Shown here piece after piece: positions 19,447 through 27,820 of a stretch of DNA of 53,450 nt. The translations under genes were made by a program, and so were the position numbers. Under the pieces are notes generated by a model. It was not told the origin of the DNA and searched no databases. It was given only the letters and a program-made list of their open reading frames with translations. Source of the DNA: SAR92 clade bacterium (GTDB lineage: Bacteria; Pseudomonadota; Gammaproteobacteria; Pseudomonadales; Porticoccaceae); NCBI GenBank assembly GCA_018607525.1, contig JABBBH010000063.1:1-53450 (forward strand), given 5' to 3'. The stretch's first letter is position 1; the number at the start of each line of letters is the position of its first letter.

Positions 19447-20286
19447 TTATTTCTTCCAAGGATTACCGCGGGCACGCAATTTTTTTTCTTTGCGTTGACG
19501 AATGTCACGCAACTGATTACTTTCATTAAACTTAGGCGTTTTAAGATTCACCGCTTTAAACAGAGAGCTGACCTGCTTAGGCTCAAGTTCAATAAACTCT
19601 GATCGGCGAATAAATGAAGGTAATTCTATTGGGCCATAGCTAATTCGCTTGAGCCGACTCACCTCAACGTCTTGTGATTCCCATAGACGACGCACTTCTC
19701 GCGTTTTACCCTCAGCCAAAATACAGCGAAACCACTGATTACTGCTGGTTTTATCTTCAGGGTTGCGGTGATGCTGAGCCTTAACCGTTTGGAATTTAGC
19801 AAGACCATCTTCTAAAATCACTCCTTCCGTCAGGTTATTGAGCATTTTTTGATCTACATCACCGTGAATTCGCGCTAGATATTCCCGCTTAATTTCGTAG
19901 GATGGGTGCATTAGTCGATTGGCCAATTCACCGTAATTGGTGAAAAGAAGTAGTCCACTGGTATTAATATCTAGCCGGCCGATAGCAATCCAGCGACCTG
20001 AATTAATTCTTGGTAGCGCCTCAAATACCGTAGGTCTTCCCTCAGGGTCCACTGTAGTACAAACCTCACCTTCAGGCTTGCTATACATCAAAACTCTGGG
20101 AGCTTCATCTTGGCTTGTTTTCACAGCACGGCCATCAACCATAATCCGATCAGATGCCTCTGCACGATCCCCTAGGGTTGCAGTAGAACCGTTCACAGAT
20201 ACCCTGCCATCAACAATCCATTTTTCTAGCTGGCGGCGTGATCCAAGACCTGCTGCGGCCAGAATTTTTTGAAGTTTTTCACTCAT
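19447..20286 (-). CDS. rluB: 23S rRNA pseudouridine synthase RluB family
   Basis: S4 domain EKLQKILAAAGLGSRRQLEKWI; GRLDINTSGLLLFTNYGELANRLMHPS; start placed at MSEKLQ, overlapping the scpB stop. Confidence 0.92.
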   Translation of the reverse strand: MSEKLQKILAAAGLGSRRQLEKWIVDGRVSVNGSTATLGDRAEASDRIMVDGRAVKTSQDEAPRVLMYSKPEGEVCTTVDPEGRPTVFEALPRINSGRWIAIGRLDINTSGLLLFTNYGELANRLMHPSYEIKREYLARIHGDVDQKMLNNLTEGVILEDGLAKFQTVKAQHHRNPEDKTSSNQWFRCILAEGKTREVRRLWESQDVEVSRLKRISYGPIELPSFIRRSEFIELEPKQVSSLFKAVNLKTPKFNESNQLRDIRQRKEKKLRARGNPWKK

Positions 20287-20962
20287 GAGTTTGACTGTCA
20301 TCCTTAGGTTCAACCTGAACGGTTTCAGGCTTTATTTCAATTGATTCTGGCATACCTACTACCAACGTTTCTTCGCCATCATCATTTGATGCAACACCCT
20401 GTGCAAGCGTTAACTCAAGGGCTGGGTCAAGCTCAGTAAGATCCTTAATTTCACCCAAAGCTGGAAGATCATCAAGGCTTTTTAAATTAAAGTAATCTAG
20501 AAACTGCTTAGTGGTAGCAAACAATGCGGGCTTTCCAGGAACATCTCGGTAGCCAACCACACGAATCCACTCGCGCTCCTGTAGTGTTTTTATAATTTCA
20601 GAGCTTACAGCAACACCACGAACCACCTCGATATCGCCTCGCGTAAGGGGTTGTCTGTATGCAATCAAGGACAGTGTCTCTAGCATGGCGCGGGAATAGC
20701 GTTTAGGCTTTTCTTCCCATAGACGATTCACCCAGGTGGCAAGTTCTTGATGCACCTGAAATCTGTAACCACTGGCTGTTTGCTTAAGCTCAAAGCCTCG
20801 GCCTCGAGAGTCTGTATCTATCTCTTCAAGGGCTGCTTTAATCTGATCTCTAGGCGGTCGCTCATCATCAGTAAATAATCGCTCAATTTGAGTAATATCC
20901 AGAGATTTTCCGGCGGCCATTAATGCGCCTTCTACTATTTTTTTAATTAGATCTGAGTTCAT
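20279..20962 (-). CDS. scpB: Segregation and condensation protein B
   Basis: ALEEIDTDSRGRGFEL, LETLSLIAYRQPLTRGDIEVVRGV, GYRDVPGKPALFATTKQFLDYF. Confidence 0.95.
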   Translation of the reverse strand: MNSDLIKKIVEGALMAAGKSLDITQIERLFTDDERPPRDQIKAALEEIDTDSRGRGFELKQTASGYRFQVHQELATWVNRLWEEKPKRYSRAMLETLSLIAYRQPLTRGDIEVVRGVAVSSEIIKTLQEREWIRVVGYRDVPGKPALFATTKQFLDYFNLKSLDDLPALGEIKDLTELDPALELTLAQGVASNDDGEETLVVGMPESIEIKPETVQVEPKDDSQTHE

Positions 20963-21828
20963 GATGTCTTTGCTTTTACATGTATAGGGCCAAAGGATTC
21001 ACTCTGTACAATTTCTACAAGTGACTCTTTTATTAATTCCATCACTGCCAAAAAGGTAACAACCACACCCAACCGCCCTTCTTCTAAAGTGAACAGAGCA
21101 ACAAAGGGCACAAATTGATTGTCGCGAAGATTTTCCATCACCTGAGACATTCGCTCACGTGTGGATAATTTCTCCATTTCAACTTGGTGACTTTCAAACA
21201 TTTCTGACCGCTTCAGCACATCGGCTAACGCAGTCACTAATTCTTTGATATCTACATCGGGATGAGGCCGCTGCTGATCACGGTCGGGTGCCTCAGAGGT
21301 GGCTTGATGAATATCTCGCCCCATCCGTGGCAGTTCATCGACATCCTCAGCCGCCTGCTTAAACCGCTCATATTCTTGAAGGCGCTTAATCAACTCTGCA
21401 CGAGGATCCTCTTCATCCTCTTCTTCAGCCTGCTGTCTTGGCAATAGCATTCGGGACTTAATCTCAGCCAACATAGCCGCCATCACTAGATATTCTGCAG
21501 CTAATTCAAGCTGAATTGAAGTCATCAACTCAATATAACCCAAATACTGACGGGTTATTTCGGCAACATCAATATCCAAGATATCGAGATTTTGTCGCCT
21601 AATAAGATAAAGTAACAGATCGAGGGGACCTTCAAAGGCCTCGAGAATAACCTCAAGGGCATCAGGGGGTATATAAAGGTCTTTGGGGAGGATAGTTAAT
21701 TCTTTACCCTGAATAACCGCAAAAGGCATTTCTTCTTGCAGGGGGGCGTTAACTGCGCTCACAGCCAAATTTATAGCCTGATTAGACTCTGTTGTTTTGG
21801 TTTTAATTGAGCTGTCTTGGTCAGACAC
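20959..21828 (-). CDS. scpA: Segregation and condensation protein A
   Basis: FEGPLDLLLYLIRRQNLDILDIDVAEITRQYLGYI, MAAMLAEIKSRMLLPR. Confidence 0.95.
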   Translation of the reverse strand: MSDQDSSIKTKTTESNQAINLAVSAVNAPLQEEMPFAVIQGKELTILPKDLYIPPDALEVILEAFEGPLDLLLYLIRRQNLDILDIDVAEITRQYLGYIELMTSIQLELAAEYLVMAAMLAEIKSRMLLPRQQAEEEDEEDPRAELIKRLQEYERFKQAAEDVDELPRMGRDIHQATSEAPDRDQQRPHPDVDIKELVTALADVLKRSEMFESHQVEMEKLSTRERMSQVMENLRDNQFVPFVALFTLEEGRLGVVVTFLAVMELIKESLVEIVQSESFGPIHVKAKTS

Positions 21829-21893
21829 TGGTTGCCCCTTAGTAAGCGATGCAGTGATTATACTCAGATTAAGTTATCTGAACATCCTCAAAA

Positions 21894-22511
21894 TCAAAAC
21901 GCTGAAAAATCTCCTGCACCCTGACGTAATATTTTAGGCATATCATCGGTCATATCAACCACAGTTGTAGGCTCAAGGCCGCAGTAGCCCCCATCGATCA
22001 CCATATCTACATGGGAGCCTAACAGCTGATTAATTTCATAGGCATCAGTCATTGGGTACTCATCTTCAGGCATCATGAGTGTAACGCTCATCATTGGCTC
22101 ATGCAGGCTATCCAGCATAGACATCACAATATTACTTTGCGGCACTCTAATGCCAATGGTTTTTCGCTTGGGATGCATGAGTCGTCGCGGCACTTCTGAT
22201 GAGGCCTTAAGAATAAAGGTAAAGGCGCCTGGCGTTGTCGCTTTAAGGGCTCTATAAACCACATTATCTACGCGAGCATAATTTGCCAAATCAGATAAAT
22301 CCTTACACATCAGTGTGAAATTATGATGCTTATCTAGTTTGCGAATAGTTCGAATTCGGTCCATTGCTTGCTTATCGCCAATATGACAACCCAATGCATA
22401 AACCGAATCGGTTGGATAGGCGACAATACCCCCACGATGCAAGCAGTCAACCACTTTACTGATAAGACGCTGCTGAGGGTTTTCGGGATGAATGGAAAGG
22501 ATCTCGCCCAT
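21894..22511 (-). CDS. L-threonylcarbamoyladenylate synthase-like protein (YciO/Sua5/YwlC family)
   Basis: GGIVAYPTDSVYALGCHIGDKQAMDRIRTIRKLDKHHNFTLMCKDL. Confidence 0.9.
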   Translation of the reverse strand: MGEILSIHPENPQQRLISKVVDCLHRGGIVAYPTDSVYALGCHIGDKQAMDRIRTIRKLDKHHNFTLMCKDLSDLANYARVDNVVYRALKATTPGAFTFILKASSEVPRRLMHPKRKTIGIRVPQSNIVMSMLDSLHEPMMSVTLMMPEDEYPMTDAYEINQLLGSHVDMVIDGGYCGLEPTTVVDMTDDMPKILRQGAGDFSAF

Positions 22512-22611: not shown

Positions 22612-24240
22612 TTAACCACTACTAGCTTCAAAAATTTCTTTCACTTTAAAACTAGCCCTGTAAGGAGTCCATTTTAACAACATGGCCCTTAATTCAAGTA
22701 ACCCAATAGGCTTATCAATATGATCACTCATACCAGAGTTTATACATTGGACCTTTTGCTTTTCACTCGCATTGGATGACATGCCTACAATAGGTAACTT
22801 AGCGGCATAATCTTCCTCAAAATTTCTTATTTGACGTGCAACTTCATAACCACTAACACAGGGAACATTACAGTCTATTAGCACCAGGTCGAAACACCCA
22901 TAAACCACTTTTTCAATGGCAGTTTTTCCATTCGAAGTAATCTCATAATCACAGCCCAACCGGTGCAACATTGCCTCAATAACATGCTGATTTATACGAC
23001 TATCATCAACAATTAATACCTTGGCCGTCTTATCATTAAGAACCGGTACCGCATCATTAATTGGCATCTTTGCTGTATAGCATCGGTTAACCAGCATGGC
23101 TGTTAAATTGGCGGTAAGAATTGGCTTGCTGATACGTGCAACATGAAAGCTATTGGTGTGATAGGAGGCAAAATAGGGATTTGATAAAATTAAAGCAAAG
23201 ATATCTGAAAAATTTAAACAATCCTCTACAAGTCCGAAAAAGTCAGATAAAGCCATATCCTCTATGTCTTCATCCACAATAATAGTTTGAAAGGTTTTAG
23301 CATCGGGCTTAGCCAGTCTAGTTATTGCGGCATGGGCAGATGAAACAATAATGACCTCACCACCCAGTGCATTAACCGAATTGACCACATGATCTTTTAT
23401 TAGCTCCGAGGCGGTGACTAATAATAATTTTTGATTCTCTAATCTAAGCTTTTTGGACTCAGCATGATTAAATTCAACACTGACTTCTTTATCTACTGCT
23501 TTCGTAACCATTGGCAGCCTTATGGATACCTGAGTTCCCTGCCCAAAACGACTTTCAAGACTCAGCCTGCCATTCATTATTTCAGCTAAACTTTTAGCGA
23601 TAGTAAGCCCTAGACCAAGACCTTTGTAAACGCTATCTGAGGAACAATCACCCTTAAAAAAAGGCTCAAATATCTGAGATTGCTTCGACTTTGGTATACC
23701 TATTCCCCTGTCATTAATCTTGAAGCAAATTGATTTTGGTATTTTGTTGATTGCTTCCTGCTCGCCTGCATTATCTATATAGAGTGACACATCACCAAAG
23801 TGTGAAAATTTAATCGCATTATCTAAAAGCTGAAACAATATCTGATGCAACTTGGCAGGGTCCGTAATTATTCGAGCTGGGAAGTTATTAGGAATCACAT
23901 AACCCAGATTAAGAGATTTTTTAAGGGCCTTTTCTGCAAGCTGATCGATTATTTCATCTAAAATCTCAACCAGATAGCAGTCCTGCTCCATGGGCCTGTG
24001 TTGATTATTTTTAATTTCAAAAAATGTTATTACTGATTGGACTGAATTCATCAGCGATTGACCAGAGGAATAGGCAATTTTGAAGTACTCCTTCTGCTTG
24101 CCTGTCATGGCTGTTGTTAGCAATAAATCCATTGTGCCTAGCATGGAACTCAGTGGTGGTTTAAGTTCCTTGGCCAATATCAAAGAATGTTTGTTATCAG
24201 TAGTGTTTTTGTGATTTGTAACCTCTGACATATTTGTCAT
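22612..24240 (-). CDS. Hybrid histidine kinase-like protein: degenerate HisKA, HATPase, pseudo-receiver, receiver
   Basis: HATPase boxes QLLDNAIKFS, NDRGIGIP, GLGLGLTI; C-terminal REC VLIVDDSRINQ / LVLIDCNVP / DKPIG; H-box reads AKELKPPL. An in-frame stop lies just upstream of the start. Confidence 0.9.
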   Translation of the reverse strand: MTNMSEVTNHKNTTDNKHSLILAKELKPPLSSMLGTMDLLLTTAMTGKQKEYFKIAYSSGQSLMNSVQSVITFFEIKNNQHRPMEQDCYLVEILDEIIDQLAEKALKKSLNLGYVIPNNFPARIITDPAKLHQILFQLLDNAIKFSHFGDVSLYIDNAGEQEAINKIPKSICFKINDRGIGIPKSKQSQIFEPFFKGDCSSDSVYKGLGLGLTIAKSLAEIMNGRLSLESRFGQGTQVSIRLPMVTKAVDKEVSVEFNHAESKKLRLENQKLLLVTASELIKDHVVNSVNALGGEVIIVSSAHAAITRLAKPDAKTFQTIIVDEDIEDMALSDFFGLVEDCLNFSDIFALILSNPYFASYHTNSFHVARISKPILTANLTAMLVNRCYTAKMPINDAVPVLNDKTAKVLIVDDSRINQHVIEAMLHRLGCDYEITSNGKTAIEKVVYGCFDLVLIDCNVPCVSGYEVARQIRNFEEDYAAKLPIVGMSSNASEKQKVQCINSGMSDHIDKPIGLLELRAMLLKWTPYRASFKVKEIFEASSG

Positions 24241-24562
24241 GCCTCTATTATTTTTCTGCTCTTAATGAAACATTCTTACCGCTACTTTATTTAAGCGACT
24301 GAATTGCTTGCGGGATTAGATATCTCTTAACAAATGATCTAGATACATAACCCCTTTAGAATAAGGAGTAGACAAAAACAAAGAGCATTTCAATTTCATA
24401 AAGAATAGATTTTCGGTTTTTGCGACACAATTCACACTTTTAGTTAGATCCTTGGACATTAATTTAATCAGGTTAGCCAATTTGGTCTTTCTATGGGTAC
24501 AATGTCTACCAATCGAACGGATCCATTTAATCGCTAAATTTCTGGGTAGTAATCTTTAAATC

Positions 24563-25294
24563 ATGACTAATCAGCAGCCACAAAAAAAACCTGAATCTGA
24601 GCTCAAAGCAAAAGACAAACCCGAGAGTCTTTTACTTAATTTGATGTGCAATATTATTTTACCGACGTTGATACTAACCAAGCTCAGTGGCGATGATTAT
24701 TTAGGTATCAAATTGGCGATTGTTGTGGCCTTAGCCTTTCCTCTTAGCTATGGTTTTTATGACTTTTTTGCCCGAGGTAAATTAAACTTTTTTTCTGCCC
24801 TAGGACTGGTCAGCGTAGGTCTTACTGGTGGCATTAGCCTACTTGAAATGGACGCTATTTATATTGCGATTAAAGAAGCCTCAATACCGGGCATTCTTGG
24901 GGTCGCAACATTACTTTCTTTAAAAACCTCACAGCCGCTAATTCACACACTGCTGCTGAACGAGTCAGTTTTTGATGTTAAAAGAATAAATCAGGCACTC
25001 ACCGACAACCAAAGTCATAGTCAATTTAATCAGTTGCTAATCAATGCCTCTTGGATATTAGCCGGCTCATTCTTTCTTTCATCCATACTAAATTATTTAT
25101 TAGCCGTTATTATCCTAACCGCCGACCCTGGAACTGTGAGCTTTAATGAACAACTCGGAAAAATGACAGCCCTGAGTTTTCCGGTTATTGCTCTGCCCGC
25201 CATGGCAGTCATGATGGGTAATCTTTTTTACTTATTTCGCGGTATTAAGCGACTAACTGGTCTAGATTTAGAATTTATAGTTAAACAAAAATAA
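24563..25294 (+). CDS. Integral membrane protein resembling the VC0807 family
   Basis: 243 aa with several hydrophobic helices; lies next to yciI, where yciB/ispZ is found in pseudomonads. Confidence 0.65.
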   Translation: MTNQQPQKKPESELKAKDKPESLLLNLMCNIILPTLILTKLSGDDYLGIKLAIVVALAFPLSYGFYDFFARGKLNFFSALGLVSVGLTGGISLLEMDAIYIAIKEASIPGILGVATLLSLKTSQPLIHTLLLNESVFDVKRINQALTDNQSHSQFNQLLINASWILAGSFFLSSILNYLLAVIILTADPGTVSFNEQLGKMTALSFPVIALPAMAVMMGNLFYLFRGIKRLTGLDLEFIVKQK

Positions 25295-25325
25295 TTTTTA
25301 TCCTTAAGAAAAGGGAATGCTTGAT

Positions 25326-25625
25326 ATGTGGTATGCAATTGTTAGTGAAGATGTTGAAAATAGTCTTGAGAAGCGAAAAGCGGCTAGACCCGCGCACCTT
25401 GAACGGCTTTATGAATTAAGAGACCAGGGTAGGCTTTTTGTTGCCGGCCCTAATCCTGCAATTGATTCAGAGGATCCGGGGCCCGCTGGCTTTTCTGGCA
25501 GCCTAGTTATTGCTGAATTTGATAGTCTTGCGTCGGCCAAAAGCTGGGCTGACAAAGACCCCTATGTTGCGGCTGGCGTTTATGCCAATGTGGTTGTGAA
25601 ACCTTTCAAAAAGGTTCTTCCCTGA
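25326..25625 (+). CDS. YciI family protein
   Basis: [55 protein letters not shown]; start placed at MWYAI. Confidence 0.9.
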
Positions 25626-25686
25626 GCTTAATTTGATTATTAATTAATACAAATTAGCGGTATGATCCCTAGCTACCCATGAAATA

Positions 25687-26409
25687 ATGAATGGTAAAAA
25701 ATTAATGTTTAATCCTAAATTAAATATCCTCGTAGGCCTATTATTAGCAGCTGCAGTCACCATTGCTGAGGAAACGGACGAGCCAATAACAGAACTGGCT
25801 ACGCCTGAAATTGGTTACATATCAGATCAGTTCTATGTCCCTCTTCGAAGCTCGCCCTGCCCTACCTGTAAGATCGTGCATAAAGGCTTAAGAAGCGGCA
25901 CCAAGCTATCTGTCTTGGGCGTAGAAGAAGAATGGACACTGGTAACCACGGAAAGCGGTTACCGAGGCTGGGTAAGAAGCCAACATCTTGCTGATCAGCC
26001 AGTGGCCCGTGAAAGACTCGAAGAAAGCCTGTTCACAATAAATAGTTTACGATCCACCAATGCTCAGCTTGAACTAGATATGCAAAATTCTTTTGAGTTA
26101 GTCGAGAGTCTTCGCGTAAGCATCAACGAGCTCAAATCAAGTCGTAGTAGTCTATCGAAGGAATTAGCTAATATTAAGTCAATTTCCTCAAAGGGTATTG
26201 TTCTGGATGAGCAAAATCAGTTGCTGGTTAAACACAACCATATGTTGCAGGAAGAACGCGATGTTCTGCGAGCCAATGTCGATGACCTACAAAAAAACCA
26301 AAACAATGATTCCATGCTTTACGGTGGTTTTTTAGTTCTCATAGGGGCAATTTTGGCTGCTATTATCCCTCGCTTGCGGGGCAGAAAACGTTTGTCAGGC
26401 TGGCACTAA
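25687..26409 (+). CDS. TIGR04211-like SH3-domain protein, coiled coil with C-terminal TM helix
   Basis: Signal-like N-terminus, bacterial SH3 region YVPLRSSPCPTCKIVHKGLRSGTKLSVLG...GYRGWVRSQHL, coiled coil, C-terminal TM helix. Confidence 0.8.
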   Translation: MNGKKLMFNPKLNILVGLLLAAAVTIAEETDEPITELATPEIGYISDQFYVPLRSSPCPTCKIVHKGLRSGTKLSVLGVEEEWTLVTTESGYRGWVRSQHLADQPVARERLEESLFTINSLRSTNAQLELDMQNSFELVESLRVSINELKSSRSSLSKELANIKSISSKGIVLDEQNQLLVKHNHMLQEERDVLRANVDDLQKNQNNDSMLYGGFLVLIGAILAAIIPRLRGRKRLSGWH

Positions 26410-26434
26410 ATAATAATAATTTTAGGATCTCATA

Positions 26435-27061
26435 ATGAAGTATTACATTAACTATTGTTTAGCGGCTTTTCTGTTAGTAGCTAGCACTCTGAGTGCCGAA
26501 GAAACAACAAAACCTCAGGTTCTTCTGGAAACCAATGTTGGCCAAATTGTACTTGAGCTCAACCCTCAGGCTGCACCTGTGACTGTTAAAAACTTTATCC
26601 AGTATGTGGATGAAAGATTTTATGATGGAATTATTTTTCATCGCGTTATTAAAAACTTTATGATTCAAACTGGGGGGCACCGGTTTGACCTAACCCCAAA
26701 AAACCCTAGCCACCCACCGATTGCTAATGAGTCTGATAATGGTTTAAAAAACCTTCGTGGAACTATTGCTATGGCTCGTACTCGCGTGCCTGATAGCGCC
26801 ACTAGCCAGTTTTTTATTAATCATAAAACCAATACATTTTTAGATCATCAAAAGAATCGTCCGGGTTATGCTGTATTTGGCAAGGTTGTTAAAGGCATGG
26901 ATATTGTCGACAAAATCGCAACTACTGAGATTAAAGCAAAGGGACGTTTGACTGATCTGCCAGTTAAGACTATCAGTATTATTAAGGCATCAGTGTTGAA
27001 GGTTAAACCAGTCATTAAAATCCAAAGCACATCTGAAAAACCTGCTGCCTCAGCAAAGTAA
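26435..27061 (+). CDS. Cyclophilin-type peptidyl-prolyl isomerase, predicted exported
   Basis: Signal-like leader; FYDGIIFHRVIKNFMIQTGG, ARTRVPDSATSQFFINH. Confidence 0.92.
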   Translation: MKYYINYCLAAFLLVASTLSAEETTKPQVLLETNVGQIVLELNPQAAPVTVKNFIQYVDERFYDGIIFHRVIKNFMIQTGGHRFDLTPKNPSHPPIANESDNGLKNLRGTIAMARTRVPDSATSQFFINHKTNTFLDHQKNRPGYAVFGKVVKGMDIVDKIATTEIKAKGRLTDLPVKTISIIKASVLKVKPVIKIQSTSEKPAASAK

Positions 27062-27073
27062 TCTGGAAACCCC

Positions 27074-27820
27074 ATGACGGCACTTAGTATTAATTTAAAT
27101 AAAATTGCTCTTATTCGAAATTCTCGAGAGGGTAACTATCCCTCTGTAGTCGAGCATGCAAAGACCTGTATTGACTGTGGTGTTGACGGAATTACCGTAC
27201 ACCCAAGACCGGACCAGCGTCATATTAGGCCCGATGATGTTCGCCAACTAGCTGCCCTTACCGGCCCGCTCGATGAGGTTGAATTCAACATTGAAGGTAA
27301 TCCATTTGCCGATGCCCTGGGTAGCTACCCTGGCTTAATTTCACTGGTACAAGAAACTCAGCCCGATCAATGTACCCTAGTCCCAGATGCTGATAATCAA
27401 CTGACATCCGATCATGGTTTTGATTTAACCCAACAAGCCGATTTACTAGCACCCATCATTAAGCAAATTAAAGCCATGGGCGTAAGAGTTAGTTTATTTA
27501 TGGACCCTGATATAGAACAAATTAAATTAGCTTCTGAAGTAGGTGCGGACCGAATTGAACTCTACACTGGCCCCTATGCAGCAGCCTGGGGCTCCAATCA
27601 GCTTGAAACTCATTTTCAACAGCATCTTGCAGCCGCTAACCTAGCCACATCCCTGGGTATGGGTGTTAATGCAGGACATGACTTGAATTTGGATAACCTA
27701 ACAAAATTTGCCAGTATCCCTGACCTTCTTGAAGTATCCATTGGTCATGCGTTTACCGTTGACTCTTTAAATATGGGTATGGTTTCGGCGCTTAGAGCCT
27801 ATCAAGCCTGTCTTTCTTAG
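27074..27820 (+). CDS. pdxJ: Pyridoxine 5'-phosphate synthase
   Basis: LSINLNKIALIRNSREGNYPSVVEHAKTCIDCGVDGITVHPRPDQRHIR; GHDLNLDNL. Confidence 0.95.
   Translation: MTALSINLNKIALIRNSREGNYPSVVEHAKTCIDCGVDGITVHPRPDQRHIRPDDVRQLAALTGPLDEVEFNIEGNPFADALGSYPGLISLVQETQPDQCTLVPDADNQLTSDHGFDLTQQADLLAPIIKQIKAMGVRVSLFMDPDIEQIKLASEVGADRIELYTGPYAAAWGSNQLETHFQQHLAAANLATSLGMGVNAGHDLNLDNLTKFASIPDLLEVSIGHAFTVDSLNMGMVSALRAYQACLS

Follow-up and report, generated by a model that had tools for sequence, protein, structure and literature searches.

The window, that is, the whole stretch of 53,450 nucleotides analyzed here, contains an open reading frame on the minus strand which, read directly, runs over 542 codons from an ATG start to a TAA stop (Table 1). 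The genome to which it belongs (G000) is represented by a 1.41-Mb assembly with 93% completeness. Promoter and terminator scans at the locus gave signals at or below chance.

Table 1. Features at the locus, in positions of the window. G009 is the genome with the closest orthologue.
Feature	Position	Strand	Remark
Putative pseudo-histidine kinase gene	22612..24240	-	542 aa; architecture DHp*-CA-pseudoREC-REC
Likely ribosome-binding site AGAGG	24242..24246	-	directly upstream of ATG; conserved in G009
In-frame TAA, 7 codons 5' of ATG	24262..24264	-	CAA in G009 (sequence directly)
Degenerate DHp (HisKA) helical hairpin, residues 21-80	24001..24180	-	Pfam 22.9 bits; two long AlphaFold2 helices
Lys24 codon AAG at the phospho-acceptor His position	24169..24171	-	
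Pro28 codon CCA at the phosphatase Thr position	24157..24159	-	
HATPase_c (CA) domain, residues 120-245	23506..23883	-	Pfam, alignment, AlphaFold2 model
Pseudo-receiver, residues 269-395	23056..23436	-	receiver fold, acidic pair absent
Receiver, residues 404-526	22663..23031	-	Response_reg 75.9 bits; phospho-acceptor D456 codon 22873-22875
New C-terminal tail, residues 527-542	22615..22662	-	relatives run on into HPt-REC-GGDEF-EAL here
Conserved flank yciO-like, scpA, scpB, rluB	19447..22511	-	common to full-length locus
Conserved divergent flank: 243-aa membrane protein, YciI-like, SH3 protein, peptidyl-prolyl isomerase, pdxJ	24563..27820	+	

Domains of the encoded protein

Two strong Pfam matches, HATPase_c (83 bits) and one Response_reg (76 bits), were found in the protein. 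The match to the HisKA profile, a comparison that an earlier sequence-only reading had proposed, begins at residue 22 and is sub-threshold, with 22.9 bits against the Pfam cut-off of 26.9. The AlphaFold2 model (mean pLDDT 75) shows a DHp hairpin, a CA domain and two receiver-like domains. The first receiver-like domain has no Pfam match, and its residues 269-395 form alternating strands and helices in the model. The best PDB match by Foldseek is the hybrid kinase ShkA, followed by GacS, HK853 and RetS, and DivL is also among the matches. The DHp/CA fold, retained as judged by AlphaFold2 and Foldseek, and the missing His would together place the protein among the pseudo-histidine kinases.

No PAS domain was matched by Pfam in the protein, and neither a sensor domain nor a transmembrane input was found in the frame or in the upstream stretch. 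The sequence-only reading had placed no transmembrane or input domain before the H-box and an in-frame stop just upstream. It was right on both points; neither Pfam nor the upstream homology search returned a sensor, and the TAA is present. In the G009 orthologue, the CAA at this position makes the frame slightly longer, and the added stretch contains no sensor domain. A longer N-terminus or a frameshifted sensor is ruled out, as no homology to the sensor region was found in the 322 bp upstream of the ATG. A split-off C-terminus is likewise ruled out, as the 100 bp between the stop codon and yciO showed no homology to the lost C-terminal region.

Substitutions at the catalytic sites

The HisKA motif is H-E/D-x-x-T/N, in which the acidic residue is required only for the kinase activity and the Thr/Asn only for the phosphatase activity (PMC3510030). 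All sensor-bearing relatives tabulated (26 of 26) have both His and Thr, in the motif THELRTPM. In the window protein, alignment of the HisKA column confirms the Lys that had been read at the His position. The same Lys is observed in the G009 orthologue, which was found among 50 genomes of the genus and is 88% identical, at the same locus and without indels. Two further relatives, in G063 and G064, are ~52% identical, have 1250-aa frames without TM or HAMP and show Ser and Gln, respectively, in this column. Named records assign G009, G063 and G064 to Porticoccaceae, Gammaproteobacteria of marine type. The phosphatase Thr, four residues on, is lost in the same four sensorless proteins (P, S, A, A). 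Glu25, the acidic residue after the His position, is present in all four.

A His in close orthologues, named beforehand as evidence against the substitution, was not observed. Sequencing error or strain mutation is ruled out: an independent genome has the same Lys, and neither of the next two relatives has a His. Nor is there anything particular about Lys. Across the clade, the position is K, K, S, Q, which rules out Lys as a special catalytic residue and indicates that the position has been freed from constraint. The codons CAG (Gln in G064) and AAG (Lys) are one base apart, and mutation could easily have led from His to Gln and on to Lys. HisKA domains without His account for 0.9% (722 of 76,471; PMC12632262), and a literature search for surveys of degenerate hybrid kinases yielded only this figure.

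In the window protein, the ATP-site residues N141, K144, D177, G179, G181, G207, G209, and G211 are retained. All eight key residues of the N, G1, F, and G2 boxes are retained in each of the four sensorless proteins. The earlier description of intact N, G1, and G2 boxes thus holds for the eight residues checked, but not for the first Asn of the N box, which is replaced by Q137. Among the features of an active HisKA kinase, the protein has the ATP site and lacks both the His and the Thr/Asn. We infer that it is unable to autophosphorylate. It probably has little or no HisKA phosphatase activity, because the Thr is lost.

The receiver at 404-526 contains the acidic pair D412/D413, the phospho-acceptor D456 and K510, as in the receivers of hybrid kinases, and also S488; its phospho-site is intact. 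The Thr switch position of the receiver is Ser or Ala in the four sensorless proteins. At the acidic-pair columns of the first receiver (269-395), D-D or D-N is observed in genus g31 and S/T-x in the window's genus. This difference indicates that the first receiver became a pseudo-receiver within the family.

Sites invariant among the 26 full-length, sensor-bearing relatives were used to compare the domains. The share of these sites kept by the four sensorless proteins is highest in the receiver (66%), followed by CA (55%), the pseudo-receiver (50%) and DHp (33%; 13 of 39 in the window protein).

Reduction of a full-length locus

In relatives, the same locus encodes a ~1500-aa protein with the architecture sCache_4-HAMP-HisKA-HATPase-(pseudo)REC-REC-HPt-REC-GGDEF-EAL. 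In most genomes with a member of the family, the full-length gene lies between yciO-scpA-scpB-rluB and the divergent genes for the 243-aa and YciI proteins, and an insert of several genes is sometimes present within the locus. A strong match was observed in 10 of the 14 genera of Porticoccaceae, mostly in ~1500-aa frames. In the genome contig scan, named relatives of the pseudokinase were confined to MAGs of Porticoccaceae, besides distant ordinary kinases. The full-length protein of G020 has 1505 aa, and its core is 35% identical to the window protein over about 510 aa. The two share synteny and the HisKA-HATPase-pseudoREC-REC core, whereas sCache, HAMP, His, Thr, HPt, the second REC, GGDEF, EAL, and a neighboring ABC_sub_bind gene are found only in G020.

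The window gene is a syntenic, stepwise-reduced orthologue of the full-length protein. This origin from a sensor/c-di-GMP protein was absent from the sequence-only reading, as were P28, Q137, the pseudo-receiver and the intact phospho-site of the receiver. A paralogue is ruled out, as both flanks match the full-length locus and no other HisKA hit in the window's own genome comes close.

All four sensorless proteins fall into one clade, on a long branch (SH-aLRT 100). The tree of yciO and scpA also groups their genomes, along with G007 and G034. In the aligned sequences, no member of the small clade has the sensor, the His or the Thr, and loss of HPt-REC-GGDEF-EAL is confined to the window's branch. 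In G063 and G064 (L055 2756-6493 on the minus strand, and L056), the Ser/Gln pseudokinase module is fused to HPt, REC, GGDEF, and EAL, and the c-di-GMP enzyme part is apparently intact.

In other genomes the locus is more degraded. Within the group seen in the yciO and scpA tree, G007 has only a 188-codon EAL remnant, and G034 has a C-terminal fragment starting at the contig edge. Elsewhere in the genus, only C-terminal pieces are present in G056 and G028, and only a ~58-aa relic in G004, and no trace of the gene was found at the locus in G026, G068, G059, and G069. Such fragments, relics, and absences across the genus indicate that the locus decays repeatedly. The C-terminal EAL/GGDEF remnants, of about 58 to 326 aa, include those at L129 8030-8596, L131 4638-4913, L184 6273-7181, and L183 6346-7326.

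Between G000 and G009, all 542 codons could be compared without indels or stops, with dS of 0.34, dN of 0.060 and dN/dS of 0.175 (95% bootstrap range 0.12-0.24). In simulations without selection to the same divergence, about 13 in-frame stops are expected, and none of the 2000 runs (0/2000) had zero. The low dN/dS and the absence of stops and indels indicate that the shortened protein is still maintained by selection. The flanking genes show a lower dN/dS of 0.03-0.15 between the same genomes, and the constraint is therefore weaker than on the neighbors. The pseudo-receiver shows dN/dS of 0.17, and the new C-terminal tail and the start region are conserved in G009. The dN/dS between G063 and G064 is 0.11, with dS near saturation.

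Possible role of the reduced protein

Judged by its residues, the protein has lost the sensor, the His, the phosphatase Thr and the C-terminal output, but still has the phospho-site of the receiver and the ATP-site residues that were checked. Several characterized proteins share part of this combination. RetS of Pseudomonas aeruginosa is a hybrid kinase with two receiver-type domains, and its His is kept. It blocks GacS by a DHp-DHp heterodimer, which replaces the GacS homodimer interface (PMC12148439). RetS, which acts on another kinase by this pairing, matches the window protein in sequence and fold, but it is a membrane sensor with a periplasmic domain, whereas the window protein has no sensor in or upstream of its frame. 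DivL of Caulobacter, with Tyr in place of His, acts neither as a kinase nor as a phosphatase; it binds and senses DivK~P (PMC4211667). The HisKA fold, the replaced His, the ATP motifs and the apparent lack of both activities are common to DivL and the window protein. DivL differs in its PAS domains, its conserved Tyr (rarely Ala) and the lack of a receiver; in the window protein, neither a sensor nor a PAS domain was found, the variable site holds Lys, and there are two receiver-like domains.

ShkA of Caulobacter is likewise a soluble DHp-CA-pseudoREC-REC protein without N-terminal input, in which the pseudo-receiver is the input domain (PMC7010744). The window protein has this architecture with no other input domain, but ShkA carries the His and works as a kinase that c-di-GMP switches. 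RocA, which acts on CovS (PMC7028121), and a ChrS pseudokinase variant, which heterodimerises with HrrS (PMC9491836), are further examples of catalytically dead kinases modulating a working kinase, although they are membrane proteins without receivers from unrelated lineages.

With about even confidence, we consider the window protein to be a pseudo-histidine kinase which is kept by selection, consists of the soluble DHp-CA-pseudoREC-REC core of a reduced BarA-like sensor, and acts by binding. Its DHp/CA would pair with another two-component protein, or dock the receiver of one, in a RetS- or DivL-like manner, and its own receiver (D456) and pseudo-receiver would supply input. The sequence-only reading had suggested an allosteric regulator, a partner of another kinase or a phosphatase. 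The non-catalytic roles are reasonable because there is no sensor and no His, the ATP motifs are kept, Lys is conserved and selection is active; the phosphatase option is not supported, since T28 is replaced by P28. A candidate partner is the remaining hybrid kinase, on contig C61 (TM-HAMP-HisKA(H)-HATPase-REC-HPt), which has the His, a receiver and a weak HPt match and whose DHp-CA is 32% identical to the window protein. It would be the least unsupported candidate in this genome. Against such a binding role, erosion is strongest in DHp, which would not be expected of a main docking surface, the constraint on the gene is relaxed relative to its flanks, and in sister lineages either the N-terminal half or the entire gene is gone.

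The same relaxation and the repeated decay in the genus, together with a genome of only 1.4 Mb in which no EAL domain was found, would also be expected of a non-essential remnant on its way out, open by recency and with no remaining cellular role. This is unlikely, considering that the upper bound of dN/dS is 0.24, that no indel or stop has accumulated, that the new tail and start region are conserved, and that neither the receiver phospho-site nor any of the ATP-site residues checked has been lost. The ShkA-like domain order and the best structural match to ShkA raise another reading, with a pseudo-receiver that would sense a small ligand, phosphorylation of the receiver in trans, and DHp/CA as a nucleotide-dependent scaffold. 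The ShkA pseudo-receiver binds c-di-GMP (PMC7010744), and the pseudo-receiver here is under selection. However, the output of ShkA requires its His, and c-di-GMP is weakly motivated as the ligand in a genome with one GGDEF and no EAL match, so that we regard this reading as quite improbable.

It is very unlikely that the protein is a phosphatase only, or a decoy, draining phosphate from a response regulator. HisKA phosphatase activity does not strictly need the His (PMC12632262), but the Thr, required exclusively for this activity (PMC3510030), is replaced in all four sensorless proteins. Autophosphorylation shifted to another residue, or phosphorylation of Lys24 itself, is hardly credible. 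Glu25, the kinase residue, is still there, as are the ATP-site residues that were checked; however, no single chemistry is conserved at a site that varies among K, S, and Q in one small clade, and DivL with Tyr is inactive (PMC4211667).

For the binding role, the lineage route can be drawn only tentatively, and we are inclined to doubt it: sensor, His, and Thr may have been lost together while the c-di-GMP output was kept, as in G063 and G064, the output may have been lost next, and a function as a trans-acting regulator of the remaining phosphorelay may have been gained. The 1.4-Mb genomes G000 and G009 each have a single GGDEF protein, and no match to an EAL domain was found in them. The c-di-GMP branch is thus nearly gone, in keeping with the lost output domains.

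Pseudo-histidine kinases are rare and their origins are little documented. HisKA domains without His are already known as a kind; what is new here is that His, Thr, sensor, and output have all been lost from a protein whose ATP site and receiver remain under selection. Also new is the graded series at one locus in closely related genomes, from the intact protein through a sensorless, His-less form with output and a core-only form to fragments and absence. At the same spot, a large membrane sensor and second-messenger enzyme gave way to a soluble protein, probably a regulator of other signaling proteins. The locus illustrates how signaling is dismantled or reused during the shrinkage of marine genomes. 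As the core-only form is under purifying selection, what selection keeps in a non-phosphorylating kinase becomes directly testable.

A gene for an ABC_sub_bind (PF04392) solute-binding protein lies beside the full-length locus of G020 (L040 9977-10909), and another beside the C61 hybrid kinase of the window's genome (L185 3776-4765). The solute-binding protein in this recurring pairing may be a co-sensor.
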